This document shows positions 5,388-48,725 of a stretch of DNA of 64,000 nucleotides, in pieces. Source of the DNA: Salinibacter pepae (lineage in GTDB: Bacteria; Bacteroidota; Rhodothermia; Rhodothermales; Salinibacteraceae); assembly GCF_947077775.1 (NCBI RefSeq), contig NZ_CAMTTE010000001.1:2012501-2076500 (forward strand), in the 5' to 3' direction. Numbering within the stretch: the first letter of the stretch is position 1; each line of letters begins with the position of its first letter. The notes under the pieces are model-generated. The model was not told where the DNA came from. It was given only the letters and a program-made list of their open reading frames with translations, and did not search any database. Made by a program: the position numbers and the translations under genes.

Positions 5388-5445
5388 GACCTCCCATGCC
5401 GAGCATGGTCCCGCCCATCGGTTCTGCGCCGCGCGCGGCCCAAGC

Positions 5446-7401
5446 CTACTCGCGGTCCACCTCGGCGCCGGTAACCTCGAAGCGCGCCCCGCCGTCGCGC
5501 CCCTCCGTCAGGGCGAGGGCCCATCCGTGGGCGTCCACGATGGTCTTCACGATGCTCAGGCCGAGCCCCGTGCCCTCCTCGTCCGACGAGTACCCGGCCT
5601 TGAGCACCTCCTCCTGCTGATCGGACGGGATGCCCGGGCCGTCGTCCTCCACGAAGAACCCGTCGTCGAGCGCGCCGATCCGGAGGGTTACGTCCTCGCC
5701 TCCGTGCTCGATGGCGTTGCGGAACAGGTTTTCCAGAAGCCGCTGGAGGCGGTTTGCGTCGGCGCGCACACGGGGGGGGTCGTCGGCCACGAGGCCGGCC
5801 TCCGGCACGTCGACGCGCTCCCAGCACGACGCAATCAGGGAGGCAAGGTCACAGTATTCTAGGTCCTCGTCGCTGAGTTTTTGCCCGCCCCAGGTAATTG
5901 CCAGCAGGTCCTCGATGATCTCGTCCATCCGCTCCAGGGCCCGGTCGATGGCCGAAAGGTGGCTCAGGTCCTCCGTGTCCTTCACGAGCTCGAGGCGGCC
6001 CTTCGCCACGTTGAGTGGGTTTCGGAGGTCGTGGGCCACGAGGCCGGCGAAGTTATCGAGCCGTTCGTTCTGGCGCTCAAGCTGCTCGGTGGCGCGGCGG
6101 TGCTCGAGCTCGTAGCTCGCCCACCGGGACATCAGCTCCACGAAGGTCCGCTCCCGCTCCGTGAACGCGGTGGGGCGGGCGCCGGAGGCCGCGAAGCACA
6201 GCGTGCCGTAGAGCGTCCCGTCGACCAGGATTTGCGAGCCGATGTAGGTGCCCAACCCGAATTTCTCGTGGGCCGGGTCGCTCGTCCAGCCCGCAGCCGC
6301 GGCGTCCTGCACGGCCAGCAGGGTCCCCTCCTCCACCGTCTTTCGGCAGTACGATTCGGAGAGGGGGCACGACTTGCCGGGTTGGAGCAACGGGTGGTCC
6401 CCCGTCGCCTGGAGGATGTGCTGCGTGCCGTCCGAGATGCGGGTCAAAAACCCGTACGGGAGGTCCAGGTACGCGCACCCGAGCTCAATGAGGCGGCGCA
6501 CCTTGTCGTCGAAGGAGGCGTTTCGGTCGGCGGTGATGCGGTACATCGACCGCAGGGCGTCCTGCTCGTCGCGCAGCGTCTGCTCCCGTTCCTTCTGCTC
6601 GGTGATGTCGGTGTAGATCGCATACCCTTCCGGCGTCTCGCTATCGGAAAACAGCACCGAGTTGAGCCGGAAGTGCCGGCGCCCTTTGTTCGTTTCGCGG
6701 ATCACTTCGGCCTGCACACTGCCCTCCTCCACGGCCCGTCGGGTGAGCGTCTCGGCCTGGGAGAGCCGTTCGTCGGGGGCGAGAAGCGCATCGAGGTCGT
6801 GGCCGACCACCTCGCTCCGGGATACGCCGAAGGCCTCCTCGAACGCCACGTTGGCGCCACGGGCGATGGCGGCCCCGCCCTGTACCTCGTAGTGCACCAC
6901 CGGGCTCGGCAGGCCCGTGTACAGCGCCGCCAGCCGGTCGCGTTCGAGCCGGAGCGTTTCGTCCTGGGCCGTAGACAGGGGCGCCATCCGCGCAATGCCC
7001 ACGACGCAGTTTGGCGGCCCCACGTCGCCGGACAGCGGCCGCGCAGTGAACGTACACGGGCGGGGGGGGCCTTCGCGAGGAAGAAGCGCAACCTCCGCCG
7101 GTGCGGTGTCGCGCCCCGCCCGCACGGCACCGAGGGCCTGTTCGACGGCCGCGGCGTCGCCCTTCCCGAACAGTTCCGGCAGGCTTTTTCCGCGGAGGGC
7201 AGCGGCCGAGTGCCCGGTGGCCTGTTGGAGGGGAGCGTTGCCCCACGCGAGTGTGTTCTGCGGGCCGAACACAAACACCGGATCGGGCATGGCCGCCAGC
7301 ACGGCGTCCGCGAAGTCGGACTGTTCGGGCAGAGGTGGGGGGGGCTCCGCGCCTGTATGGTCGTCGGGCGGGGGGCCGCCCTGCGTCTCGCTTGCGGGCA
7401 T
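5446..7401 (-). CDS. cytoplasmic PAS-PAS-GAF sensor histidine kinase
   Basis: A 651-residue protein without membrane segments. Two PAS domains (about 25-130 and 155-265) precede a GAF domain (about 295-435) with a conserved CPLSESYC stretch, then HisKA with His457 in LVAHDLRNPLN. The ATPase domain has the N box LLENLFRNAIEH, G1 DDGPGIP and a G2-like TGLGLSIV. The H-D-L-R-N-P-L-N phospho-acceptor box is typical of the bacterial and haloarchaeal kinase group that often lacks a fused receiver. The GAF-HisKA-ATPase part is closely paralogous to the kinase at 52781-54139. No response regulator is adjacent. It ends 58 bases from the convergent kinase and starts (ATG 7401) beside a palindromic repeat. 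Confidence 0.88.
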   Translation of the reverse strand: MPASETQGGPPPDDHTGAEPPPPLPEQSDFADAVLAAMPDPVFVFGPQNTLAWGNAPLQQATGHSAAALRGKSLPELFGKGDAAAVEQALGAVRAGRDTAPAEVALLPREGPPRPCTFTARPLSGDVGPPNCVVGIARMAPLSTAQDETLRLERDRLAALYTGLPSPVVHYEVQGGAAIARGANVAFEEAFGVSRSEVVGHDLDALLAPDERLSQAETLTRRAVEEGSVQAEVIRETNKGRRHFRLNSVLFSDSETPEGYAIYTDITEQKEREQTLRDEQDALRSMYRITADRNASFDDKVRRLIELGCAYLDLPYGFLTRISDGTQHILQATGDHPLLQPGKSCPLSESYCRKTVEEGTLLAVQDAAAAGWTSDPAHEKFGLGTYIGSQILVDGTLYGTLCFAASGARPTAFTERERTFVELMSRWASYELEHRRATEQLERQNERLDNFAGLVAHDLRNPLNVAKGRLELVKDTEDLSHLSAIDRALERMDEIIEDLLAITWGGQKLSDEDLEYCDLASLIASCWERVDVPEAGLVADDPPRVRADANRLQRLLENLFRNAIEHGGEDVTLRIGALDDGFFVEDDGPGIPSDQQEEVLKAGYSSDEEGTGLGLSIVKTIVDAHGWALALTEGRDGGARFEVTGAEVDRE

Positions 7402-7428
7402 TGCGGTGCGGGCTGGAGCAAAAGGGAG

Positions 7429-7486
7429 ACGTGAAGCGCGCCGCCCGGCAGGCGGTCAGCGAGCGCTTCACTTTGGGGCTTCACGT
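7429..7486. repeat. intergenic palindromic repeat, copy 1
   Basis: Two overlapping inverted repeats: ACGTGAAGC (7429-7437) with GCTTCACGT (7478-7486), and GTGAAGCGC (7431-7439) with GCGCTTCAC (7463-7471). Both are perfect 9-bp pairs sharing the left arm, so two alternative stems are possible. It lies just upstream of the kinase starting at 7401. GTGAAGCGTGA-type words recur in palindromes at 23.45, 24.4, 25.97 and 26.8 kb. Confidence 0.7.
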
Positions 7487-7639
7487 TCGTTTTGTATTGG
7501 TGTCCTACTACGACTCTCCCAGGCCAACGATTCGGCCAGCGCGAAGGCCCTGGGCAAAGTATAGAGAACAGCAAGATTAGTGCCAGGTTCGGGACGCAAC
7601 GGGGGCGTGGCGGGCGGCCCGCAACAGGCCGGGGCGACA

Positions 7640-9943
7640 CTACGCCGCGGTGCCGTTTTCGTGCTCCTGGATGCGGGTGAGCGAGGCCTCCAGTGCGTCG
7701 CGGTGGATCACCTCGCCGGTGTTGGGCTGCACCTGTCCAAATTCGAGCACACCGGTCGGGCACGTCTCCACGCACGCCGAGCACCGGACGCACTCCGGGT
7801 CGTCCATCGGCGTGCCCGTCTGGGCGTACGCCATCACGTCGATGCCCTGGTGGCAGACGCTCGTGCACTGGTTGCACGAGATGCACTTCTTCTTGTCCGC
7901 CAGGATGCGGAAGCGGCTGAACCGGTGGTAGATGTGCATAATCGCCGCCAGGGGACAGAAAAAGCGGCACCAGAAGCGCCCGCTGAGCCAGAAGTACACC
8001 CCGAAGCCCACCATGCCGGCCAGCAGAATGTCCACCACCCAGCTGTAGCCCAGGCCGAGGCCCCCGCCGTAGAGGACGGCCCGGTAGGCCTCCGCCGCCC
8101 CGCTGCCCGGCCAGATCCACCCGCCGATGCGCAGGACCAGCAGCGCAAACGCCACCCCCATGATGACCTGCCCCGCCAGGTTGAGCTTATTCCAGCCGGG
8201 GCCGTGCGGCATCTTCTCGCGGTGCTGGTCGCCGAGGGTCTCGGCCAGGGCGCCGCAGGTGCAGATCCAGCCGCAGTAGGCCCCCTTCCCCCAGAAGTAG
8301 ATCATCCCGGGGATCAGCACGAAGGTCTGCACGAAGCAGATGGCGAGCCACCACCAGAGCGGGTCGGTGGTGAACACGTTCCAGATGAAGAGGGGCCAGG
8401 CCAAGATAAAGCCGTAGGCCCGCCAGTACTGGCGCCCGTGGACCGCGTACTCGCTGGTGGGGAAGAGGGCGTCGAGGACGCCGGTGGGCAGGAGGCCGTT
8501 CGCCCCGAGGTAGGGAAGGACGAATTCCGGAAGGATGAAGAGCGGCAGCACCTGAATGCCCATCAGGGTAAGGGTCTGCACCTTGATGTAGGGCGTTTTG
8601 CGCCGCCGGATGCGTTTGACCCCGAAGACGACCACGAGCGCCGAGTAGGCGAACGTGTAGTAGAAGCCCGGCTTCTGCATCGACGTCAGCAGAATGTCGA
8701 GCGCGCCCGTTCCGCTCGTGTCGGGGGACCAGCCGAACGGGAAGAACCCGGTGGCCTGCGCCCACTGGCCCACCCAGCCGCCGTCCTTCCAGCTGTAGAC
8801 GGCCACCATGAAGAAAAAGAAGGCCGCAAACGCCGTGATGCGGTCCCAGCGCAGGTCTTTGAGCCAGGCGAGCCCCGAGAGCGCCTCGTTCAGCGAGTCG
8901 GGCACCTCGCCCCAGTCGTTGCGCAGCTCGATGCCGGAGCGGCGGAAGAAGTCGAGCGGCGCCTCCCGCCCGACCGTCGCGAAGACGTGGTCCGCGTCGA
9001 CCGTCTCCGTATCGCCGTTTTCGTCGGAGAGGACGACCTCGGCCTCACGGATCTCCTCCACGTCGGTCGGCATCTTGAGGGTGAGGCTGCCCTCGCCCTC
9101 GTGGTACGTGGCCCGCTCGTAGAGGCGCTCCACGTTCGTCTCCTTCGGCCGCACGAACTCGTCGCGCCGGTACGAGAGGGTGACGTCCGCCCCCGCCTCC
9201 GTGAGCGCAGTGGCCGCTTCCGCCGCCGAGTCGCCCCCGCCGATGACCAGGGCCCGGTCGCCGCGGCACCGCGTGGGGTCGTGCAGGCGGTGCTGCACGT
9301 GGTCCTTGTCCTCGCCGGGCACGTCCAGGCTTCGGAAGTTGCCGCTCCGCCCGATGGCCACGATCACGCGCTGGCCCCGGATGCGATCCCCATCGGTCGT
9401 GACCACCGCGTGGCCCTCGGGGGCCGGGTCGATCCGGTGGGCCGTCGCGTGCCGCACCGGAAGGTCCTTTGTCTGGGCCTCCAACTCGTCAACGAGCGCC
9501 TCTTTCACCTGCGCGGTCACCTCGAGGTCGCTCGCCGGCGTCATTGCCTCCGGGTAGGTGTAGATCGGCTTGCCGGCCTGAAAGTCCTTGATCGTCGCAA
9601 ACCGGCGCTGCGACTCCAGGACGCAGAAAGAGAGCCCGCTCGTTCGGGCCTCCCGGGCGGCGGCCATGCCGCTGGCCCCCGCGCCGATGATGACCACGTC
9701 GTACGGCCCGTCCGCGCCCGTCGGCTCCACGGGGTCGATGCCCCGCGTGAGCAGGTCCCGCACGGCCCGCGCGCCGCCGTCGACCGAGAATTTGAGGAGG
9801 GGGACCCCAGCCAGGTCGCCCACGACGTACACCCCGTCGACGTTGGTGCGAAAGTGGTCGTCGACCTTGGGAAGTTTTTCGGGCGTGCCGGCGGGCCACT
9901 GCAGGTGGAGCCAGTTGGCGTAGCGGGCGAGCGCGTCGAGCAT
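7640..9943 (-). CDS. fused flavoprotein oxidoreductase / NapH-type polyferredoxin membrane protein
   Basis: A 767-residue protein from ATG 9943; further upstream the frame is low-complexity and not conserved-looking. The order is unusual. Residues 28-65 (TNVDGVYVVGDLAG, then FSVDGGARAV) look like the C-terminal FAD-binding signature of thioredoxin-reductase-type flavoproteins, yet they precede the normal N-terminal Rossmann motif VVIIGAGASGMAA. A second dinucleotide-binding motif (VIGGGDSAAEA) follows. The C-terminal half has about six membrane helices, a NapH-like YCGWICTCGAL and FWCRFFCPLAA, and two 4Fe-4S ferredoxin clusters (CISCNQCTSVCHQ and CVRCSACVETCP). It probably moves electrons between NAD(P)H/FAD, iron-sulfur clusters and the quinone pool or a periplasmic partner. 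The acceptor cannot be read from context, as neighbours are sensor kinases. Confidence 0.85.
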   Translation of the reverse strand: MLDALARYANWLHLQWPAGTPEKLPKVDDHFRTNVDGVYVVGDLAGVPLLKFSVDGGARAVRDLLTRGIDPVEPTGADGPYDVVIIGAGASGMAAAREARTSGLSFCVLESQRRFATIKDFQAGKPIYTYPEAMTPASDLEVTAQVKEALVDELEAQTKDLPVRHATAHRIDPAPEGHAVVTTDGDRIRGQRVIVAIGRSGNFRSLDVPGEDKDHVQHRLHDPTRCRGDRALVIGGGDSAAEAATALTEAGADVTLSYRRDEFVRPKETNVERLYERATYHEGEGSLTLKMPTDVEEIREAEVVLSDENGDTETVDADHVFATVGREAPLDFFRRSGIELRNDWGEVPDSLNEALSGLAWLKDLRWDRITAFAAFFFFMVAVYSWKDGGWVGQWAQATGFFPFGWSPDTSGTGALDILLTSMQKPGFYYTFAYSALVVVFGVKRIRRRKTPYIKVQTLTLMGIQVLPLFILPEFVLPYLGANGLLPTGVLDALFPTSEYAVHGRQYWRAYGFILAWPLFIWNVFTTDPLWWWLAICFVQTFVLIPGMIYFWGKGAYCGWICTCGALAETLGDQHREKMPHGPGWNKLNLAGQVIMGVAFALLVLRIGGWIWPGSGAAEAYRAVLYGGGLGLGYSWVVDILLAGMVGFGVYFWLSGRFWCRFFCPLAAIMHIYHRFSRFRILADKKKCISCNQCTSVCHQGIDVMAYAQTGTPMDDPECVRCSACVETCPTGVLEFGQVQPNTGEVIHRDALEASLTRIQEHENGTAA

Positions 9944-10243
9944 GGGAGCTACAGAACGGTAGGGCGAAGGCCAAGGCGGGAGAAGCGTCCGTGGACCCCA
10001 AGCACGTGGACCCCAAACATGTGGTCGGGGCCTACCGGCCGGCGTTACGGGGCCGACCCAGTGTGCAAACACACGGACAAGTCTGTGCGAAGTGCCCGTG
10101 AGGCCCATGCGCGCCCGACGCCGTGTTTCGGGGGCCGCCACAGGGGGCTCATCCATGGGGGCCGAAGGTCAAAATAGGGGAGACCGAGGACGTCGGCTCG
10201 CGTCCCTGTGCCCAGCCGGACGAACCGCGGGGCGCGGGCGGCG
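9944..10243. other. intergenic region upstream of flavoprotein gene
   Basis: No gene is recognised. The region should contain the promoter of the minus-strand flavoprotein gene and the end of the kinase gene transcribed from further right. A purine-rich A/T patch near 10166-10180 is the only compositional feature. Confidence 0.35.
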
Positions 10244-11775
10244 CTACGAGACAAACCACCGCCGGCTCACCTGGATGCCGACCGCGAGCACAGTGCCCCA
10301 CAGAAGGTGCGCCAGCAGGCTGTTCGGATTGAGGTTCGGGACCGGGGTCGCGATGCCGACGAGGTTAAGCCAGATCGGCATCACGAGTCCCGCCGCCACG
10401 AGCCATAGCACGGCCCCCCACACGGCCCCCACACCGGCCGTCCCGATCCAGGTTGTCCGCCACCACCGCGGCAGAAGGGTGAGGAGGCCGGCGTAGATGA
10501 GGGCAAAGACGAGACTGTGAAACTCGTGGGTCAGGACGCCGACGACGAGGCTCTTTGTGCCGTAGAGCGCGCCGATGACCGGCACGACGCCGGTGGTGAC
10601 GTGCATGTACACCCCCATGACCACGCCCGCGATCAGCCCTGACAGGGCGGTGGCCCCGAGCCGGGCCGGCGCGACGCCCAGGAGGGGTGAATCTGCCGGG
10701 GCGGCGGACGCGCCTTCGGCGGACTCGGGGACGCGTTCGAGGGCGATCGACACGGTGGTTCCCGCGTCGGTCGCCTCTGTGTGGACGGATCCCCGAACCG
10801 TGTGGACGAACAGCCGCACGAGATACAACCCGAGCCCCGCCGTAGGGGCCCCCTGTTCCGAGATGGTCGTGCCGGTCTCCAGTGCTTCCCGGTTCTTGTC
10901 CGGCAGCCCGGGCCCCTCGTCGGACACAGAGATCGTCGCGGTGTCGGGGGTCGTGTCGAGGGCGACGGCCACGCGGGGGCCTCCACGCCGGCGTGCTCGG
11001 CCCCGTTTTTGAGCAACTGCCCCACCACGTCCGCCAGCCGGTGATTCGCGTACGCCGATAGGTCGGAGGGAAGCGATTGGGCCACGAATGTCGCGTCGGG
11101 GTGTCTCTCTCGTGCCTGCTGGAGGGCCGTCTCGACGGCTTCCGGGACGTCCACCGGCTGCCGCTCGGCCCCGGCGCCCGGCTCGGCGAGGTCGTGCACG
11201 CTTCCCATGACGGCCTCGATGGACTCGGCCTTTTCCAGAATGGCGTCCACCGACTCCAGTCCCGTGTCCGCACCGTCCCGCAGGAGCGGGGCGCTGCCTT
11301 TGATTACCGTGACGGCGTTCATCACCCGGTCGTGTAGCAGGCGATTCAGGATGACGAGCCGATTCTGACGGTTCAGGAGTTTGCGCTGGGCGGCTTTGGT
11401 TTGGGCGGCGTACACGCCGGTGAGGGCCCCGCCCACGCTGCCCCCGATCAGCACATTCGAGAAGATGCCGATCGTCCGGACGTCTTCGGCGAAGGAGGAC
11501 GGGCCTCCGTAGACGGTCGCCACGATGAGCAGGCCGATCACGCCGGCCCCGAGCACCGTCCACTGCGCAATGGTGCGCACGTACCACGTCTCGAACGAGC
11601 CGATGGCGAGGGCCACACCGCACACCGACAACGACAGCCCGAGGACGAGGGGGACGATGCCCCCCACCACAAACGCCGTCGACGCCTCCGCGTGGGCGAA
11701 CGTGATGGTGTAGCGGGTCATCACAAACCCCAAAAGTGCGATGACCAGCCCGCTAGGGGTGAATGTCCGATGCAT
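10244..11775 (-). pseudogene. sensor histidine kinase with N- and C-terminal membrane domains, interrupted by a frameshift
   Basis: The N-terminal part (ATG 11775) has four predicted membrane helices and a haloarchaeal-type dimerisation segment with candidate phospho-acceptor His148 (NRLLHDRVMNAVTVIKG). The frame runs to VGQLLKNGAEHAGVEAP, then continues in another frame with RVAVALDTTPDTATISVSD, the G1 box EGPGLP and G2 AGLGLYLVRL, followed by about four more helices to the stop at 10244. The shift falls in a run of five C (coding strand; 10975-10979). One extra C restores GVEAPRVAVAL exactly. It may be a genuine recent inactivation or a one-base sequence error. A kinase core sandwiched between two membrane domains is unusual. 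Function and partner are unknown. Confidence 0.8.
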
Positions 11776-12270
11776 GCTCTTGTGCGTGTGGCAGAAGACA
11801 ACAGAAGCAACGACGCGGAACGTGTCTAGGCGACGCGGGGCCGGGGCGCAACCGATTCGTGCCACGTCCGGCTGCGCCCCGCTGCGTGCTGGTCGGAAAG
11901 AGAGGCCGCACACCGAACGAGGGGGGCGGTGTTGGCGGCCGGGCGACCGCGGCCTCGTTCCGGTGCTCTGGAGGCCCTCCGACCGGTGCCGACGAGGCAT
12001 CTCTCCGTTCCGCTCGCCTCTGGTTATCGGCGGTCGGGGTGCGTGCCTTCAATGCGGCCCTGGGTCCGACGGGGGCCGTTCGAGGGGGCACACGCGGGCG
12101 ACCGGGGGACGAATTCCGTTGACGGAGGCACCGAAGGGGCGAGAACACTCGGCGTGCGACCCTCCCCGATTCGGGGGCTTCCGGTGTGAACTCCGCCCGG
12201 TGCGTAACGCTGCCCTAAAAAAGCGCCCTAAGCACAGCCGTAGAGGGCTGCTCACCTCGCGTCTTCTCCG
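11776..12270. other. divergent intergenic region
   Basis: It separates the minus-strand kinase from the plus-strand DUF3179 gene and should hold both promoters. No coding frame has sensible composition. A short A-run (12217-12222, CCTAAAAAAGCGCCCTAAG) lies about 50 bases before the DUF3179 start and may be part of its promoter. No other structure was seen. Confidence 0.4.
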
Positions 12271-13440
12271 ATGACCGATTCTCCGTCCGTGCAGCATCGA
12301 TTGGTTTTCGCACTGGGTCTGGTGGGACTCTGGGTCGTTTCCGTTGCGCCGGGGGCGCGAGCGCAGTCGTCCCTCCCCCCGAACGCGCCGCCGGCCCTCC
12401 AGCAGTTCGACACGGCGTACTCGAAGCACAATATCGACCTCTCGACGCTGGTGTCGGGCGGGCCGCCGAAGGACGGCATCCCGTCGGTGGACGCCCCCGT
12501 CTTCGTATCGGTGCGGGAGGCGAGCAGGTGGGTGGCGCCGGAAGAGCCGGTGATCCTACTCGAACACAAGGGCACGGCCCGGGCCTATCCGCTTCAGATC
12601 CTCACGCACCACGAGATCGTGAACGACCGGATTGCGGGCACGCCGGTGGCCGTCACCTTCTGTCCGCTCTGCTACAGCGCCCTCGTGTTCGAGCGCACGC
12701 TCGACGGCGCGCCGGTCGAGCTTGGCGTTTCCGGCCTGCTCCGCAACTCGGACCTCGTGATGTACGACCGCAAGACCGAAACGCTATGGCAGCAGCTCAC
12801 GGGGAAAGCGATCGTCGGCGACCTTGCGGGCCGGACGCTGACGCAGATTCCGTCGCAGATCGTCTCCTTCCGCCAGTTCAGCACCACCCATCCGGACGGA
12901 GCGGTGCTCTCGCGCGACACGGGGCACGACCGACCGTACGGCCGCAATCCGTACGCCGGCTACGACGACATCGACAATAAGCCCTTCGCCTACCGGGGCC
13001 CCACGGACGACCGCCTGCCCCCGATGGCGAAGGTCGTGGCCGTCACCATCGGCGACCGCTACAAGGCCTACCCGCACTCGAAAACCGAAAAGAAGCGTGT
13101 CCTTCACGACACGGTCGCCGGCCGGCCGCTGGCCGTGTTTCACGCCCCTGGCGCCGTCTCTGCGCTCGACGCGGCCGAGATCGCGGAGTCGAAAGAGACC
13201 GGCTCCACCGGCGTCTTCGACCGCCGCGTGGACGGGCGCACGCTCGCCTTCTCCTACGTGGACGATGGGCGCTTCGAGGACGAGGACACCGGAAGCACGT
13301 GGACGGTGACCGGCAGGGCGGTGGAGGGCCCGCTGGAGGGGACCCAGCTCGACCGCGTCCAGCACGGCGACTACTTCGCCTTCGCCTGGTTTGCCTTCCG
13401 TCCCGACGCTGCACTCTATGGGGCCGGAGGAAGCTCGTAG
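12271..13440 (+). CDS. secreted DUF3179 domain protein
   Basis: A 389-residue protein with a signal peptide (cleavage after about GARAQ). Almost all of the mature part matches DUF3179: the N-terminal GGPPKDGIPSVDAPVF, the core GTPVAVTFCPLCYSALVFERTLDG, LRNSDLVMYDRKTETLWQQ, a central DTGHDRPYGRNPYAGYDD stretch and a C-terminal FAFAWFAFRPD. The Cys-Pro-Leu-Cys pair (CPLC) is a hallmark of the family. The family is common in halophiles and marine bacteria and its biochemical function is not established. A small lipoprotein resembling the N-terminus of this family follows 55 bases downstream. ATG 12271 is chosen because it directly precedes the signal sequence. Confidence 0.88.
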   Translation: MTDSPSVQHRLVFALGLVGLWVVSVAPGARAQSSLPPNAPPALQQFDTAYSKHNIDLSTLVSGGPPKDGIPSVDAPVFVSVREASRWVAPEEPVILLEHKGTARAYPLQILTHHEIVNDRIAGTPVAVTFCPLCYSALVFERTLDGAPVELGVSGLLRNSDLVMYDRKTETLWQQLTGKAIVGDLAGRTLTQIPSQIVSFRQFSTTHPDGAVLSRDTGHDRPYGRNPYAGYDDIDNKPFAYRGPTDDRLPPMAKVVAVTIGDRYKAYPHSKTEKKRVLHDTVAGRPLAVFHAPGAVSALDAAEIAESKETGSTGVFDRRVDGRTLAFSYVDDGRFEDEDTGSTWTVTGRAVEGPLEGTQLDRVQHGDYFAFAWFAFRPDAALYGAGGSS

Positions 13441-41046: not shown

Positions 41047-41697
41047 ATGCTAAGGCAGGAAGTGGATATTGAGTTGGCCGACATGGCCGACCAACTCGGC
41101 GTCACGCTCCGCCGGCTAATGGCAGGGCTCCGGGCGGGGCGGTTCGCCGAGCACGTCACCGAGGACGATCTCGTGTACAGCGACAAGGGGGATCCCCTCT
41201 TTTTCCGCATCGAACGATCCCGTGGCTACGCAATCTGTGGAGGGGACCTGCCCGATGTGGAACAGGACATGAGCACGGTGGAGCGGATGAGCACGTCCGC
41301 GGAGACCGAGGAAGGCACGACAGAAGAGCGCGGCGTGTCAGCGACGGCGGGGTGGCCGGGCATTGGAACGGTCGCAGGGGCTGTGGCGCTCATCAAGACC
41401 GCATTCCGCGGCGGGGTTGCCCTTCTCGGCAGGCTCTTCAGCGGGTTTGGCAGGCTGCTTGAGAAATGGCCGTCCAGTGAGCGGCCGTCCAGACGTGAAC
41501 TACCGGGACGGCGGTTGGGCGCGATCTATCAGGAGGGCTGGAATGCCCGGCTGGAGGGGAATCGGTCCAATCCGTACCTCGACGACCCACCGGCGCGCAA
41601 CGCCTATCGACAGGGATGGTGGGATGCAGACGAGGAGATGAAACGTCTCTTGGCGTCTCACTTCGAAGTGGAGTGCCGGACGTCCGCTCGCGGATAG
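41047..41697 (+). CDS. unknown protein with C-terminal ribosome-modulation-factor-like domain
   Basis: A 216-residue protein. Residues 1-70 form a small domain with a helix-turn-helix-like segment (IELADMADQLGVTLRRLMAGLRAGRFAEHV). An acidic linker and a hydrophobic or amphipathic stretch follow (about 103-140, GTVAGAVALIKTAFRGGVALLGRLFSGFG). The C-terminal 45 residues (about 158-202) read AIYQEGWNARLEGNRSNPYLDD, then RNAYRQGWWDADEEM. This matches the RMF/CrpP pattern A-x3-G-[YW]-x-A-x3-G-x(n)-PY-x(n)-[WY]-x2-GW-x2-A. RMF dimerises and silences ribosomes in resting cells, and related small domains occur in mobile-element proteins. The fusion to an N-terminal region with a possible membrane segment is unusual. 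Function is inferred from the motif only. Confidence 0.6.
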   Translation: MLRQEVDIELADMADQLGVTLRRLMAGLRAGRFAEHVTEDDLVYSDKGDPLFFRIERSRGYAICGGDLPDVEQDMSTVERMSTSAETEEGTTEERGVSATAGWPGIGTVAGAVALIKTAFRGGVALLGRLFSGFGRLLEKWPSSERPSRRELPGRRLGAIYQEGWNARLEGNRSNPYLDDPPARNAYRQGWWDADEEMKRLLASHFEVECRTSARG

Positions 41698-42052: not shown

Positions 42053-42925
42053 CTACCCGAGCTTCTCTCTGGCTCTCGCTCGGAGAATGTCCCGCTGACG
42101 CGACGGCGAGATTGGCTCCTCGATCGCCACGTCTACGAAAAACACCCTCGGAAGTGCGTGTAGCGCACCGGGAGCGTCGTCCGGCACCCGTCTCAGCTCG
42201 GAGTCCAGGATCTGCCGGCCCGCAATGCGGCCGGTGTCCCGTCTCCGGAAGCGGCGTGCCAGATCAGCCCGGCTCTGCACCACCTCGGGATGGATGCGGC
42301 CCTCCTTCAGACGACAATGGACCCGAAGCCCGCGCGGCATCTTGTCGCGAGGAACGTAATCGGTGCTCCTGCCCAGCGAACCGGCGCCCCCCGACGGACC
42401 CGCATTCTCCGAAGAACGTCCCCGTGTCGGGCGGCGGCGGGCGTAGTGAACGAAGACATCTTCCGGCTTCTCCTGACACAAGAGCCGCCAGCCGCAGCAG
42501 GCCGTCTCGGGAACGGAAAACTCCCCGACCGGATCGCGGCCGGTTTCGGCAACCCATTCCCAGTACCGTGCCCATCGCTTCCGTCTTTTCTCGGGGGAAA
42601 ACCGCTCGCGGACGCTTCTGTGGCGGTCGCTTCCCCACTTTGGGGCGCGCCTCAAGGCCTGTGCCCCGTGCTCATCCACCGTGTAGAAGCGCTCGACGAG
42701 CGCCCCGTTCGTCACCGTGACCCGACTTTCGATGGACCGGCGCTCCCAGGTGCCCGACGCCTCGTGGCGCAGCGGCACTGAGATGTTTGCGATCCGGGAG
42801 CCCTCCTCGGGCCGCTCCTTCTCCCACGTGTCTCCGTCTTCCAGGGCCCTGACCGCCTTCTGCGGAAGCCTCGAAAGCACAGCCTCTCGGCGTTCAATGT
42901 CCACAGGCATGCCGGTCGCGTTCAT
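42053..42925 (-). CDS. hypothetical protein
   Basis: A 290-residue protein from ATG 42925; further-upstream starts would add low-complexity sequence. No family is recognised. It is rich in Arg and Glu (RERFSPEKRRKRWARYWEWVAETGRDPVGEF), has several Cys (PETACCGWRLLCQEKPEDVFVHYARR), and ends in FFVDVAIEEPISPSRQRDILRARAREKLG. No signal peptide or membrane helix. Codon use is consistent with neighbours, which favours a real gene. It lies among other lineage-specific small genes. Confidence 0.55.
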   Translation of the reverse strand: MNATGMPVDIERREAVLSRLPQKAVRALEDGDTWEKERPEEGSRIANISVPLRHEASGTWERRSIESRVTVTNGALVERFYTVDEHGAQALRRAPKWGSDRHRSVRERFSPEKRRKRWARYWEWVAETGRDPVGEFSVPETACCGWRLLCQEKPEDVFVHYARRRPTRGRSSENAGPSGGAGSLGRSTDYVPRDKMPRGLRVHCRLKEGRIHPEVVQSRADLARRFRRRDTGRIAGRQILDSELRRVPDDAPGALHALPRVFFVDVAIEEPISPSRQRDILRARAREKLG

Positions 42926-43621
42926 GGCTCTAGACGGGGCCCCAAGGATTTGCGGGCCCAAGAAGCATTCCAGGGACACAATCCGGCCCCCAGATGATCC
43001 GCGAAAAGGGGCTCGTTCAGACTGGGCCGGCCCCAGGAGAGGCCATCTGTTCGCGGACGCACGGAGTAGACCGGAGAGGCGGCCTTCTCGGTGGGACACA
43101 GCAGGCCAGGACCTGGTGGGGACTTAGAGCGTGACAGAGATCGCTGATTGATTGCCATTCGAACCCAGGAGTGCCGTTGAAAAAGATCCGTCTTGACCGC
43201 ACTGGTGGAAGCCGCAGCGGCAGCGTCCGCCATGGTTTGCCTGCATGGTTTGCCTGTCGGAACCCGATTTGACTCCTCTCTGCGCGCAGGGAAAAAAGAG
43301 ATAACGCCTCCGTCACGCTGAGGGGGTGATCTCCTGGAGGCGTAATTCCGTATAGCATAAAAATACAGTTGCACACAGCTCTTGGCATCTACTCCCTCGT
43401 CTCCGTCGCCCCAAGCTCCACTCTCCTGCTGGAAATAGGTCCTGACACGTCTCAGGGGCTTCCCGCCTCTTTTCTGGGGCCCGTCTTTCCTGCAGGAGGG
43501 CCCGCCTGCAGTGCAAGGCAAAATGACTCCCAGTGGTTGCATGGTGCTGAACACCGGCACGACCGAGCCGAGAGCCCCCGCACAGCTGCTTCTTGACCTC
43601 TTCTCGACGCAAACGGGAACC
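42926..43621. other. divergent intergenic region
   Basis: It separates the minus-strand hypothetical gene from the plus-strand membrane-anchored protein and should hold both promoters. An A/T pocket at 43346-43372 (AATTCCGTATAGCATAAAAATAC) is the best promoter candidate. No gene is supported. Confidence 0.35.
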
Positions 43622-44191
43622 ATGCAACGGCAAACAGGGCCGGTCCAGATCATCCTCGTTTCGCTGCTCCTCCTTGCGGCCCTGCTGGGGGCGTCGGTCC
43701 TAGTCGTTTCCCCTGTGACCGAGCCGGTTCAGGCACCGGATCGGGGCGGCAGCGGTGTCGTCCCGGACACAGGATCCACCAGTCAAGAGCCGGTTGAGTC
43801 CCCGACGGTGGCACTCGATATCGAGACGCGAGGGGGGACGTCCCTGACAAAAGCGAAGGCAAGCCTCGTCGTCCTCCCGGGGACTACGGAAAGCGGGGGC
43901 CCCAAGCTCTCTCTGTTGACGGTGTCGACGTCTCCGGACAGTGCGTTTGACGCCGGGCGGCTCTCTCTCGTCTTCGCCAACGGGGAGCGCGAGACGCAGG
44001 ATCTGAAGCAGATTGTCGCCAAAAACGAAGGGGGCGCGGCCGTGCGGCTGCACTGGATGGGCCTTTCGGACGAGCGGCTCCGCCGAATTGCGGGTTCCAG
44101 GGCGCTTCGCCTGGAGGGTGGGGGAGCCGTGCTCGACCTCTCGGAGAGTTCGATTCCGGCGCAGGCACGGGCCCTGCTGAAAACGCGCTGA
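43622..44191 (+). CDS. membrane-anchored hypothetical protein
   Basis: A 189-residue protein. ATG 43622 starts directly before a single strong membrane helix (VQIILVSLLLLAALLGASVLVVS). A Pro/Ser/Thr/Asp-rich linker leads to a soluble domain (about 70-185: VALDIETRGGTSLTKAKASLVVLPG ... LSLVFANGERETQDLKQIVAKNEGGAAVRLHWMGLSDERLRRIAGSRALRL) that would face the periplasm. The pattern is beta-strand rich; no known family is recognised. The next small gene lies 320 bases downstream. Confidence 0.6.
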   Translation: MQRQTGPVQIILVSLLLLAALLGASVLVVSPVTEPVQAPDRGGSGVVPDTGSTSQEPVESPTVALDIETRGGTSLTKAKASLVVLPGTTESGGPKLSLLTVSTSPDSAFDAGRLSLVFANGERETQDLKQIVAKNEGGAAVRLHWMGLSDERLRRIAGSRALRLEGGGAVLDLSESSIPAQARALLKTR

Positions 44192-44513
44192 CCGGCCCCG
44201 CTTGTATTCGAGGCGGTCGTTGCCTCCCGGACCCCGAGGCCACAACGGTCGCGGTGCGCCGTCCCGGCGTGGACGCCGACGGCGAGGGGGCGAGCCCTCC
44301 CCCTCAACGGTCCCGCGGCTGCACGGAAGACGTCGAGCCGGCCCCCGCACGACCCGGTGCCGAGCCCCCAGTGAAGGGGCGTCGTGGACTGCAAGCGAAG
44401 AGCCCCCCTCCGGGCCGGTCCGCGCAGTGCAGGCGGGTGGACATCTGGGGCCGGGACCGAGTATCCAATCCCGTGGCAATGCGTTTCTGTGTCTTCACAG
44501 CCTCACACAGCCG
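44192..44513. other. intergenic region
   Basis: 322 bases without a supported gene, promoter-like box or repeat; only G/C-rich sequence. Confidence 0.4.
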
Positions 44514-44729
44514 ATGTTTGACGAAGAGCACTTTCCCCGAGAGTACGAGTGCGAAGGCTGCTCCACAACCGCCACGGTTACGCACGAGGACGTGCAGGAC
44601 GTGCCGTCCTTCCTTGCGGCCACGACCGTGGCGGAGGCGGTCGAGTACGTGATGACTGAACGCCGTCGGTGGTCGCTCCAGTCGTTCGAAGGGGCGTTCT
44701 GCCCCGCCTGTACGGAGGAGACAGACTGA
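44514..44729 (+). CDS. small putative zinc-ribbon protein
   Basis: A 71-residue protein starting MFDEEHFPREYECEGCSTT and ending FEGAFCPACTEETD. Two Cys-x2-Cys pairs (CEGC near residue 13, CPAC near residue 64) flank an acidic helical middle (DVPSFLAATTVAEAVEYVMTERRRWSLQ). This is the layout of a small zinc-binding ribbon. No named family is recognised and the role is unknown. Acidic composition and codon use fit a real gene of this organism. Confidence 0.6.
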   Translation: MFDEEHFPREYECEGCSTTATVTHEDVQDVPSFLAATTVAEAVEYVMTERRRWSLQSFEGAFCPACTEETD

Positions 44730-44997
44730 GGCAAACGGACCGGCCTGTCCGGTTCGATCTACTGGGAGAGGCGGAGGCGTTGACCGGGAACGGGGGTTCT
44801 GTGCTGGCAGGGGGACTGGGGACCCGAACGGCCAGGGGCTGCTTGCGCCCCCATTTCCCGCTTGTCGCTCCTCCATTCATCGCACAACCCGGCCGGTTCG
44901 TCGACGCTTCCTGAACGCTCCGGCGGGCCCTGCGTGCGTCTTCACGTGACGACATGACGTTGGGAACGACATTGAATCGACACTCGCTTTCTGCTCC

Positions 44998-45831
44998 ATG
45001 CACCGACGTAGGTCTTCTCGATCCCGTGGCTCACAAATCCGCCTCCTGCTTGCCTCTCTTCTCTTGCTCGGTGCAGGGGCGCTGTTCACTGCCCCGCCCG
45101 CAGCTGGGCAGGAGGGGCTGGCCCGCCCGCCCGCGGCCGACTCGGTACCGGCCGTCTCCGGCCAGGTGAATCTACGGGGCACGGTCGGCATTCCGCGGGG
45201 AGGCCTCCGCAACAACATTAGCGGTGTGGGCGGGGGACTCCACGGCTACATCGGCGGCTGGATCGGCCGGCGTCCTCTTCTGGTCGGGCTGGACCTCGGC
45301 ATCCTCAACTATGGGCGCACCACCGATCAGGTGCCGTTCAGCCGCACGGTCGGCCCGCGCGTGCCGGTGGAGGTTTCCACGAACAACAACGTGGTGGAAA
45401 CGCACCTTTCGCTGCGGCTTCAGCCCCGGACGGGACGCTTTCGGCCCTACGTGGAAGGGCTGGCGGGCTTCAAGTACCTGTTTACCCGCACCACCGTCGG
45501 GGACGATGACTTCGGCGATGATGAGCTCGGGGATGACATTGCCGGGTCCACCAACTACGACGACTTCGCCCTCAGCGGCGGGGCCGGGGCCGGAATCGAC
45601 GTCCGCGTTTACCAGCAGCGGGAGCCGGGGAAAACCCTGAGGGCCGTAGACGTGCACCTCGGCGTGCAGTACCTGCTGGGCCAGGAGGCGGAGTACCTCG
45701 CAGAGGGAGAGCTCACCGACGAGAACGAGAATGGCCAGCTCGACCGGAGCGAGCTGGACGTCCGCCGCTCACGGACAACCTTCCTACAGCCCCAGTTCGG
45801 CGTGACCTTCCGGCTGGCGGACACCGATTAG
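44998..45831 (+). CDS. putative outer-membrane beta-barrel protein with EF-hand-like loop
   Basis: A 277-residue protein. The basic N-terminus and hydrophobic core (IRLLLASLLLLGAGALFTAPPAAGQ) are a signal peptide. The mature part alternates polar and hydrophobic residues, with strands such as GGGLHGYIGGWIGRRPLLVGLDLGILNYG and VDVHLGVQYLLGQEAEYL. It ends in a probable terminal strand (TTFLQPQFGVTFRLADTD), typical of outer-membrane barrels. Near residue 240, DENENGQLDRSEL fits a canonical EF-hand calcium loop (D1, N3, N5, G6, L8, E12), and an Asp-rich loop (DDDFGDDELGDD) lies near residue 165. Function unknown; calcium-stabilised surface barrel is the best guess. Confidence 0.65.
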   Translation: MHRRRSSRSRGSQIRLLLASLLLLGAGALFTAPPAAGQEGLARPPAADSVPAVSGQVNLRGTVGIPRGGLRNNISGVGGGLHGYIGGWIGRRPLLVGLDLGILNYGRTTDQVPFSRTVGPRVPVEVSTNNNVVETHLSLRLQPRTGRFRPYVEGLAGFKYLFTRTTVGDDDFGDDELGDDIAGSTNYDDFALSGGAGAGIDVRVYQQREPGKTLRAVDVHLGVQYLLGQEAEYLAEGELTDENENGQLDRSELDVRRSRTTFLQPQFGVTFRLADTD

Positions 45832-46077
45832 GAGTCGCGTCCGGATTGAAGGGAACGACCGGAGTAGGGGGGCCGGGGAGCAAGCCGTCCCCACGTCGAA
45901 CGTTGCGTCTGCCGCTCCCGCCGGCTTTTACCCCTGTGGGCTCGGCACCCATCGAAGCGACGCCGGGGCCGTGGTGCAACGTCTTCCGTAGACGTGCGGG
46001 AGCGGGGGCGGCGACGTTGGGGCATGGCGGGACGACCAAATAAGTCGACAGGCCCAACGAAGACAGCCAGCAGAGCC

Positions 46078-46584
46078 ATGCGTGCAGACGACATGCCGGC
46101 AACGTACCGCACCTCAAGGCTTCAGCGAGGTCTTTCCGTCCTGTCCGTTGGGGCCCTCCTCCTTCTCGCGGTGCTGGAGGCAACCGACGGGGGCCCGCTT
46201 CTGGAACTCTCCCTGGTCAACGTGATGCTCACGGGCGCTACGCTTCTCGCGGCGGCCGGCTATGGGCTTCGGGCCACCGTCCAGGTATCGGAAACGGCGG
46301 TTCGAAAAACACGGCCCCTCTGGACGGACAATGTCCTTCGCTTCGAGGACATCCAACGGCTCCACCTGCCCGTAACCACCGAGGCGCTCTGGCTCTACAC
46401 CGAGCCGAACGGAAGCCCGGATCTGAGCATCGAGGCGCAGTCGTTTGGGCGGTTCGGGTCCCTGGCCCGCCGGGTGCTCCGGCGGTTGCCCCAGCACACA
46501 GAGAGCCAAGATCCGGCCGGTCGAGTCGAGGGGTACCGGCGGGGCGGAGACGCCACAGGGGAAAACCAGACGGACGACGGATAG
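46078..46584 (+). CDS. two-helix membrane protein with PH-like domain
   Basis: A 168-residue protein. ATG 46078 is chosen because it precedes the first membrane helix closely; ATG 46024 is in frame upstream. Two helices (LSVLSVGALLLLAVLEAT; LSLVNVMLTGATLLAAAGYGL) are followed by a compact domain (RATVQVSETAVRKTRPLWTDNVLRFEDIQRLHLPVTTEALWLYTEPNGSPDLSIEAQSFGRFGSLARRVLRRLP). This resembles bacterial PH-like domains (the W-x-D-I-x-x-[IL] strand pattern). Role unknown. Confidence 0.6.
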   Translation: MRADDMPATYRTSRLQRGLSVLSVGALLLLAVLEATDGGPLLELSLVNVMLTGATLLAAAGYGLRATVQVSETAVRKTRPLWTDNVLRFEDIQRLHLPVTTEALWLYTEPNGSPDLSIEAQSFGRFGSLARRVLRRLPQHTESQDPAGRVEGYRRGGDATGENQTDDG

Positions 46585-46913
46585 GCGGGGCGACCGCTAG
46601 ACGTAGGTGGGGAAGAAGACGCCGACAGGGAAGAGGACGCGGACGGTCTGGTCGGATGGCCTGTCACGCCGGCGTCCTGCGTTCTCGCCCGTTGGTTGTC
46701 CCCTTGGAATGCAGACACGTCCGACACGCGCAGTCTCCTTCCCTCGCGGACGGGGCCTCTGTCTCGTCGGGGCCGTCCTGCTCGTGTCCGTCGGCGGACC
46801 TGTCCCCGTGGCGGAACGGCCTCCCACAGGCCCGGCGCCCCTTCGGAGAGACGATCCCCGAAGGTGTCGAATCGGCTGAGTCCGAATTCGCCACGCACAG
46901 TCAGGGGAAGCCG
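46585..46913. other. convergent intergenic region
   Basis: Between the stop of the two-helix membrane protein and the stop of the RMF-like gene. No gene, repeat or clear terminator seen. Confidence 0.4.
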
Positions 46914-47171
46914 TTACCGTCCCTCGTGGTCCTCTGCCATCAGGTATCCTTCGAGCCAGGCTTCGATCTCCGCCGGGCCGTCGAATTGGCACTCGTCCGG
47001 TGGGGGCTGATCTTCTCGAAACGCGTGCCATCCGCTGTCGAAGGCCTCGCGCAAGTTCGGGCGGTCGTAAGGATTTGACTCTTCGTGGAGGCTTGATTCT
47101 TCGATGCGACTGCCTTCAGGCTTGGCGTAGAACGACGCGGATTGCGGTCTCTCCCTGAGCAACCCGGCCAC
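46914..47171 (-). CDS. small ribosome-modulation-factor (RMF/CrpP)-like protein
   Basis: An 85-residue protein; no ATG is available, and GTG 47171 is the likely start. The C-terminal half reads REAFDSGWHAFREDQPPPDE, then CQFDGPAEIEAWLEGYLMAED. Aligned with E. coli RMF (ERAHQRGYQAGIAGRSKEMC, then PYQTLNQRSQWLGGWREAMA), the G-[WY]-x-A, C-x-[YF] and W-L-x-G-[WY] positions correspond. An extra NPY box (EESNPYDRPN) precedes it. RMF inactivates ribosomes as 100S dimers on starvation. Similarity rests on short motifs, so function is tentative. It is the second RMF-like protein within 6 kb (see 41047-41697). Confidence 0.55.
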   Translation of the reverse strand: MAGLLRERPQSASFYAKPEGSRIEESSLHEESNPYDRPNLREAFDSGWHAFREDQPPPDECQFDGPAEIEAWLEGYLMAEDHEGR

Positions 47172-47531
47172 CGGAAAGCAGGGGTGGGAAGGGGAGCAGA
47201 GCCGATCTCCCTTCCTGCCGCATGGGCCTCGCCGAGCGTCGCTGCCGGATCAGGAAGCCACTGCATAGACGCGTGTGGGCCAACAGTCTAACGTCTTTTG
47301 GGCACGTTCATATTTTCTTTACTTGTAGCGAGTCCCCTCCGGAGTGGTGGGGCATGGGTCGTGTCTAGGGGGGCGATCGGTAGGCCTCTTGAAGCGGGCT
47401 GGAGGTCCCCAAGCGCACCGCTCCCGCAGGTCCCCGCAGTGGACGCCGCCCTGCTCCCCCATCGAAATTCGCGCTCAGCGCACGAAGCGCTGCCCCTGCG
47501 GGCACGGGGGCGCCTGCACGCGGGGGCCTGC
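47172..47531. other. intergenic region with an A/T-rich pocket
   Basis: 360 bases. It holds the upstream region of the RMF-like gene on the left. An A/T pocket (47290-47328; TTCATATTTTCTTTACTTG) may be its promoter or a terminator for the lipoprotein gene read from the right. No gene supported. Confidence 0.4.
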
Positions 47532-48725
47532 TCACAGCGTGCACTCGCTCTCGCCAGGCCGGGCCGGACCCTGATCCGGCCGAAGGTAGCGCTGGGCTGC
47601 CTCCAGCATGAGGGGCACGTCAAAGTAAAAGGGGCTGGAGGACCCGTCCCGTCGACGCTTCAGTTCAGGCACAATTTCCCGGCCCACGAAGTCCTGCAGG
47701 AACGCCGCCCCGAGTGAGTCGCGGACCCTCGTCGCCAGCAGCAGAACGAGTGCCTTTTCGCTCAACCCGTACGTCTGCTCCGACGTCTCGGCCAGTGGCG
47801 CGATGGCCTCGGAGCGGGGGTTGTAGTAGTAGATGGAGGACACGTCCGGGTGCGACGCACGAACAAACCTGATGACCTCTCGTGCGGGCGCCGGGGTGAA
47901 TGGCAGCAGCGCCTTGGCAATCTCCAGGGAAGACTGCAGCTTGAGGAGGCCGTTTGGGGAGTAGTACCCGTCGGCCCCGCCGAAGACCGTCTCGATGCCC
48001 TTGTCGTACATCTCGCGCGAGAAGCCCTTCTTCAGGTACGCCCCTTCTGCGAACCGGGCCATGGCGTTGGCCCGACGGAACAGCGAGGCGTCCTGGGTGC
48101 CGCAGGCAATCTTGCGGACGGTATGCGGCATCTGGTTCAAGACCCACGTGTTTTCGGAGAGCGTCTGGGTGCCGTAGTTGTAGTAGTTCTTGACGACAAA
48201 TCGGCGGTCGGTTGCCCAGTACCCGTGCCTGAGGTACGCGTCGAGCACTTTGGTGGCCATCCTGCGGTGCTCGGGGTTGCCCCACCGCTCGTACGCCTCC
48301 CAGAGCGCGTCGGCGAGGAGGCCCGTCTCTTTCGACCCGGACGCGTCGGGGGCAGTGCCGGGCTTGTAGCGCCACAGGACCGTGTGGCGCGCCCGCGGGT
48401 CCCCCGTGTCGACGCGAAGGAAGTGCGCCCGGATCATGCCGTAGGCGCGGTCGAACAACGAGCGATTGCCGAGGGCCACGGCCGCGCCCATCGTGTTGCC
48501 CAGGTCCACGGCGTACGCAAAGCCGTCGTCGCGGACCGGCAATCCCGTCTTGAGGCCGTCGGCGAGGCGGGCTTCGTAGCTGCTGACAAGCTGCTCCAGC
48601 TCTTCCGAGGCCGTTTCTCCATCCGAAGCGGTAGACGTGCAGCCGCCCAGGAGCCCCGCCGCACACAGCAGGACCGTTGCGGCGAGCGTCGAGGGGGGGC
48701 ACGGCACGGAGGGGGCAGGCCACAT
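47532..48725 (-). CDS. secreted lipoprotein of unknown family, probably helical-barrel
   Basis: A 397-residue protein with a lipoprotein signal (TVLLCAAGLLGGCTST; Cys near residue 29). The mature protein has many evenly spaced helices with aromatic/acidic motifs (ARHTVLWRYKPGTAPDASGSKETGLLADALWEAYERWG, RFVVKNYYNYGTQTLSENTWVLNQMPHTVRKIA, ADGYYSPNGLLKLQSSLEIAKALLPF). The pattern suggests an alpha/alpha-toroid, as in glycoside hydrolases and lyases, but I recognise no specific family or catalytic pair. It ends in SGECTL-like polar residues. Probably acts on the periplasmic side of the membrane. Confidence 0.65.
   Translation of the reverse strand: MWPAPSVPCPPSTLAATVLLCAAGLLGGCTSTASDGETASEELEQLVSSYEARLADGLKTGLPVRDDGFAYAVDLGNTMGAAVALGNRSLFDRAYGMIRAHFLRVDTGDPRARHTVLWRYKPGTAPDASGSKETGLLADALWEAYERWGNPEHRRMATKVLDAYLRHGYWATDRRFVVKNYYNYGTQTLSENTWVLNQMPHTVRKIACGTQDASLFRRANAMARFAEGAYLKKGFSREMYDKGIETVFGGADGYYSPNGLLKLQSSLEIAKALLPFTPAPAREVIRFVRASHPDVSSIYYYNPRSEAIAPLAETSEQTYGLSEKALVLLLATRVRDSLGAAFLQDFVGREIVPELKRRRDGSSSPFYFDVPLMLEAAQRYLRPDQGPARPGESECTL

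Follow-up and report, generated by a model that had tools for sequence, protein, structure and literature searches.

A protein of Salinibacter pepae with an RMF-superfamily domain fused to a lineage-specific N-terminal part

The ribosome modulation factor RMF, which silences ribosomes, is familiar above all as a small, free-standing protein of Escherichia coli-like bacteria. In gamma-proteobacteria, the binding site of RMF on the back of the small subunit lies close to the 3' end of the 16S rRNA, and RMF acts together with the short HPF (PMC6746590). BatR (PA3049) of Pseudomonas aeruginosa is an RMF homolog with an added element of its own, a 15-residue C-terminal extension; RMF/BatR homologs have been described as confined to gamma-proteobacteria, in an analysis that kept homologs at a 50% identity criterion (PMC13411936). 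In HibA, an archaeal protein, an HPF-like domain is joined to a CBS module, so that here, too, a hibernation-factor domain is combined with another module (PMC13324472).

Analysis of a 64,000-nucleotide stretch of the Salinibacter pepae genome (here called the window) revealed a gene encoding a protein with an RMF-homologous domain at its C terminus (Table 1). Unlike RMF, the protein belongs to a host outside the gamma-proteobacteria. RMF (PF04957; E. coli structures 6h4n, 4v8g, and 9iot and Vibrio structure 2jrm) and the window domain share a two-helix fold, which is predicted here, with 22 to 29% identity in structural alignments, and the pattern G..A...G....[NC]PY........[WY]..GW..A. The window domain has NPY in place of the CPY of RMF, is near neutral whereas RMF is strongly basic, and lies below Pfam detection. 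It is also fused to about 150 extra residues, whereas RMF is a free-standing protein of about 55 residues. This N-terminal addition includes a hydrophobic helix region; the addition in BatR is C-terminal (PMC13411936). HibA differs in that its domain is of the HPF and not the RMF type, in its archaeal origin, and in its reported identification by cryo-EM (PMC13324472).

A literature search that covered few subscription journals found no description of an RMF-domain fusion or of RMF or ribosome hibernation in Salinibacter. The RMF domain as such is already known; the fusion and the occurrence in this genus are new relative to the literature searched. RMF homologs are present in this genus and in other members of the order, one of them fused, in a genus in which the HPF core was detected and the long-HPF C-terminal domain was not. 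This offers a testable entry to the question of how such bacteria store ribosomes. It also bears on the question of whether the RMF fold has a more general use as a module, beyond hibernation.

Table 1. Features of the fusion gene and of the second RMF-like ORF in the window
Feature	Residues	Position	Strand	Remarks
Fusion protein gene	1-216	41047..41697	+	216 aa, ATG to TAG; orthologs and dN/dS of ~0.16
N-terminal part, orphan	1-70	41047..41256	+	84% identity to G004; no family; low-confidence model
Acidic linker of low conservation	71-105	41257..41361	+	66% identity; net charge -6
Hydrophobic, probably amphipathic helix region	106-143	41362..41475	+	Moment ≤0.67; net charge +4; helix 107-138 in low-confidence model
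TTG codon (Leu157), candidate internal start	157	41515..41517	+	Conserved in the three orthologs, immediately before RMF domain
RMF-homologous domain	148-205	41488..41661	+	Profiles and predicted fold; helices 153-169 and 181-205; NPY loop 175-177
Free-standing acidic RMF-like ORF		46914..47171	-	≤85 aa, with uncertain start; ranks next among the window ORFs with both RMF profiles

The fusion gene and its N-terminal part

An earlier note on this DNA had pointed to positions 41047 to 41697. An ORF for 216 amino acids lies at these coordinates on the forward strand, and it is a genuine gene. Full-length orthologs were found in three of 13 same-genus genomes, namely, the host's own, G003 (99% identity), and G004 (80% identity). 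They comprise 216 to 218 amino acids, and the reading frame is open in all three genomes. Among the 60 genomes searched, including the host's own, there was one further match (G044, E value of 3.9e-4), which is weak and was dropped as an ortholog because it crosses three stop codons. Comparison with the G004 ortholog gave a dN of 0.115, a dS of 0.73, and a dN/dS ratio of ~0.16; judged from these rates, the gene is under purifying selection. Identity to this ortholog is 84% over residues 1 to 70, 66 to 68% over residues 71 to 145, and 89% over residues 146 to 200, which indicates constraint on the two ends and a more freely varying middle. The G+C content of the window is about 58 to 71% in 2-kb steps, and the host genome comprises 3.6 Mb. 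Rfam gave no match in the 36- to 50-kb part of the window. Four terminator-like sites were located at 40.5 to 42.3 kb, and a search for a sigma-70-like promoter found none. As a control, the universal ribosomal protein S20 was detected in five of five genomes.

Searches with the full protein against Pfam, NCBIfam, PHROG, and PDB sequences revealed nothing useful; the PDB gave only neurexin matches, at E values of ~1, and one PHROG match had an E value of 1.8. The N terminus had no convincing relative besides the orthologs in 113 genomes. Its matches outside the orthologs (best E value, 0.003) were rejected after six loci had been read by eye and their likeness was found to be no better than chance. 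In a model built from the three orthologs, the pLDDT was below 50 at residues 1 to 21 and 24 to 150. A helix-turn-helix motif had earlier been suggested for the N-terminal part; it is unproven, because residues 1 to 70 gave no family, no convincing relative, and no confident model.

The hydrophobic or amphipathic segment mentioned in the earlier note is real. Residues 106 to 143 reach a hydrophobic moment of 0.67, and the best 19-residue Kyte-Doolittle mean is 1.58 in the window protein and 1.68 in the G004 ortholog. The customary hydropathy limit for a transmembrane helix is 1.6. The two values straddle this limit. Given the strong moment and these values, the region is probably amphipathic; a transmembrane helix, which would span residues 109 to 127, is less likely. 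Residues 106 to 157 carry a net charge of +7 over 52 residues (+5 in G004), a basic value for the window. Segments of 52 residues that reach +7 numbered 290 of 12,998 in 28 sampled coding sequences and occurred in nine of the 28 proteins; therefore, the basic stretch is not an outlier. The TTG codon at Leu157 is a candidate start for a free RMF of 60 amino acids.

The C-terminal RMF-like domain

The Pfam model of RMF (PF04957) did not match the 216-aa protein even at an E value of 10, and in the host genome it did not recover the copy of the fusion gene at an E value of 1. Across 114 genomes, the model revealed seven small-ORF matches in six genomes at E values of ≤0.001, all within the order. 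Some of the other matches at E values of ≤1 were translated and judged to be noise. Six small relatives were scanned singly, and all of them matched PF04957 (E values of 5e-7 to 5e-5), three of the six above the cut-off. Because the window protein itself lies below detection by PF04957, its connection to RMF passes through these small relatives. The seven small ORFs and L011 (E value of 0.003) were combined into an eight-domain profile from which the window protein was excluded. With this profile, the window protein ranked first among 1,023 six-frame targets (E value of 1.3e-4), and the second rank was the same ORF taken from stop to stop. The next targets were the window ORF 46914-47171 (E value of 0.004) and an unrelated ORF (E value of 0.36). 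None of 20,000 shuffles of residues 147 to 216 reached the real score (best, 15.2 versus 20.6 bits). When the profile was extended by E. coli RMF and a further two relatives, the window protein again ranked first (E value of 2.8e-5), ahead of 20,000 shuffles. An hhalign comparison of the two-sequence C terminus with the eight relatives gave a probability of 94.

Searching the PDB with the eight-domain profile revealed one RMF, 2jrm, at an E value of 7e-4 (next match, 0.29). A twelve-sequence profile, which included the window protein and the G004 ortholog, revealed three RMF sequences at E values of 2.3e-7, 0.0018, and 0.0025 (next match, 0.22); these are the sequences that E. coli RMF itself finds in the same copy of the PDB. 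The conserved residues of the domain are G, A, NPY, and GW.

A model of residues 144 to 207, based on an alignment with eleven relatives, had a mean pLDDT of 87 and contained the two helices that flank the NPY loop. The best two of 33 Foldseek matches of this model were RMF chains (probabilities of 0.97 and 0.85, with weak E values of 0.6 and 2.2), and the remainder had probabilities of ≤0.25. VIA-align, applied to Foldseek's own matches, placed RMF as the top four of 74 chains with Z scores of 6.8 to 7.4, followed by rat C5a with 5.2. The full-length model, for which only the three orthologs were used, had a pLDDT of 43 overall and block means of 68 to 85 over residues 151 to 200; with this model, RMF formed the top three of 99 chains (Z scores of 6.3 to 6.9; next, 5.0). 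A VIA-align Z score below 8 may by itself reflect a common arrangement, and the case for RMF therefore rests on the accord of the fold models with the sequence profiles. Taken together, the profiles and models identify residues ~148 to 205 as a homolog of RMF with a predicted two-helix RMF fold.

The earlier note had claimed the RMF-like C terminus from a short aromatic pattern, which it called the RMF/CrpP pattern, and had named the absence of profile or structural similarity to RMF as what would overturn this claim; both similarities were found, and the resemblance is above chance. It is highly improbable that the likeness is a chance pattern of aromatic and glycine residues. The failure of PF04957 to detect the window protein would agree with such a coincidence. 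The shuffles, the first rank among the 1,023 targets, and the recovery of three PDB RMF sequences argue against it, and so do two models from different alignments that both match RMF best.

Possible roles of the fusion protein

Of the 13 same-genus genomes, 11 matched the HPF core (PF02482); the two that did not are assemblies that are 83% complete. The long-HPF C-terminal domain (PF16321) was found in none of the 13, and the 216-aa protein, for which the Pfam scan was empty, has no such S30AE_C dimerization domain either. The detection of the HPF core and not of the long-HPF C-terminal domain, as where RMF acts in gamma-proteobacteria, makes an RMF-like factor plausible in this genus. A Bacteroides control also had PF02482, with no PF16321 and no RMF match, which indicates that RMF need not accompany a short HPF. 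Three of the 13 genomes gave a second S30AE (HPF-core) match (G005 [L149], G006, and G010 [L148]), and all three also carry a free-standing RMF-like ORF.

We tentatively regard the protein as most likely a ribosome-binding factor of the RMF type that carries an additional domain for anchoring or for a partner, and we put ribosome binding at slightly less than even odds. The RMF-superfamily domain is joined to the lineage-specific N-terminal part via the hydrophobic, probably amphipathic helix and a basic lead-in and may bind the ribosome as E. coli RMF does. The fusion protein would then act beside the short HPF of the genus and silence ribosomes, presumably under stress. Either the helix or the N-terminal part may fix the complex to the membrane or a partner protein or may control it. 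A more specific form of this proposal, in which the helix tethers the RMF domain and hence stored ribosomes to the membrane or a partner in this salt-in halophile and TTG157 could also yield the free 60-aa RMF, is unlikely. Ribosome binding is made slightly less probable, and a role like that of BatR slightly more so, because the +7 stretch is not rare, the helix of the G004 ortholog is slightly more hydrophobic, and the Bacteroides control has a short HPF without RMF. The patchy distribution, the low charge, and the precedent of BatR also count against a role at the ribosome. The fusion occurs in only three of the 13 same-genus genomes, and any RMF-like ORF found by the A2 profile occurs in seven of the 13, which argues against a core function. 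Residues 144 to 202 have a net charge of +1.7 per 100 residues, compared with +12.7 for the much more basic E. coli RMF. In favor of ribosome binding, this charge resembles that of the host genome's HPF (+0.9) and is less acidic than the median (-3.3) of 28 coding sequences chosen by hand from 40 ORFs.

The precedent of BatR suggests that the RMF fold might be a protein-protein interaction module here. The protein would then regulate stress responses by binding a partner, such as a kinase or a membrane protein, and not the ribosome. We consider this the main alternative, somewhat less probable than ribosome binding. BatR binds the kinase SrkA and is reported not to serve ribosome hibernation, although its co-precipitation list in that study also includes 50S ribosomal proteins (PMC13411936). 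Four of nine free-standing RMF-like proteins (L007, L010, L085, and window ORF 46914-47171) are very acidic, at -11 to -33 per 100 residues, and are unlikely to be canonical rRNA binders. The other five show mild acidity, at -1.3 to -8.3. The near-neutral charge of the fused domain speaks against this reading. The conserved G, A, NPY, and GW residues look like determinants of the fold rather than rRNA contacts. Against partner binding, no partner candidate is visible among the Pfam-scanned neighbors at 42056 to 48725. Five of these neighbors (42056-43099, 44202-44726, 44998-45828, 45994-46581, and 47535-48725) had no Pfam match up to an E value of 0.1, and 43511-44188 had a sub-threshold match only. 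The ribosome-binding reading is retained as the preferred one.

Relatives and genomic surroundings

The second RMF-like ORF of the window lies 5.2 kb from the fusion gene and matches PF04957 weakly (E value of 0.037). Like the fusion gene, it occurs in the host and has orthologs in G003 (93% identity) and G004 (76%). The dN/dS ratio was ~0.24 versus G004 and 0.62 versus G003, the latter from only seven differences. G004 and G006 contain weak relatives of 76 to 82 amino acids, counted from chosen starts, in which CP[FI] replaces NPY; one of three CP[FI] proteins matched PF04957 weakly (E value of 0.041), and two did not match. The small same-order relatives L005, L006, L007, L008, L009, L010, L074, and L085 share the domain with the window protein, in which it is fused, whereas they are free-standing proteins of about 63 to 93 amino acids from chosen starts.

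Inspection of the relatives gave further observations. Elsewhere in the family, three genomes from two genera have a very acidic small RMF-like ORF directly upstream of a glycosyltransferase gene and a gene resembling that of a glycogen-debranching enzyme (L037 ~6900 to 12300 in G005, L038 ~3640 to 9110 in G006, and L127 ~8860 to 12390 in G016; the genes were called by Pfam in G005 and G016 and judged from the first residues in G006). In G005, phosphoribosyltransferase and PRPP-synthetase-like genes come after the debranching-like gene. In another family of the phylum, L133 and L134 (G369 and G221) contain short ORFs with CQQxPYPASQPHxxWQWLQGW, which resembles the second half of RMF, and G406, of the same genus, gave a weak match. 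These phylum-wide weak matches (G221, G369, G399, and G406; E values of 2e-4 to 0.006) cover the model only partially and were not counted as RMF.

Both RMF-like genes of the window lie inside a stretch of ~39.4 to 52.8 kb for which blastn found nothing in the equivalent part of G007; the left flank matched G007 at 88% identity, and the right flank, one gene, at 70%. This variable stretch would be consistent with a gene derived from a phage or another mobile element; its RMF-like domain would then act on the translation of the host in the course of an infection or a conflict. We consider such an origin quite unlikely: at E values of up to 1, the full protein matched none of 50,697 phage records and none of 72,556 plasmid records, it had no relative in the viral-contig set, and the purifying selection and the gene order common to three genomes also speak against it. 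Genome contigs gave nothing with the full protein or with the domain alignment, and the plasmids gave nothing with one of the small relatives as query. On the side of a mobile origin, the family also reaches viruses: a pattern search of viral contigs gave 93 matches, and the one that was confirmed is an RMF-like ORF of 64 amino acids at L150:3959-4153. The contig has a GC content of 38% over the fetched part, and the ORF adjoins genes that look T4-like and nucleotide-reductase-like.
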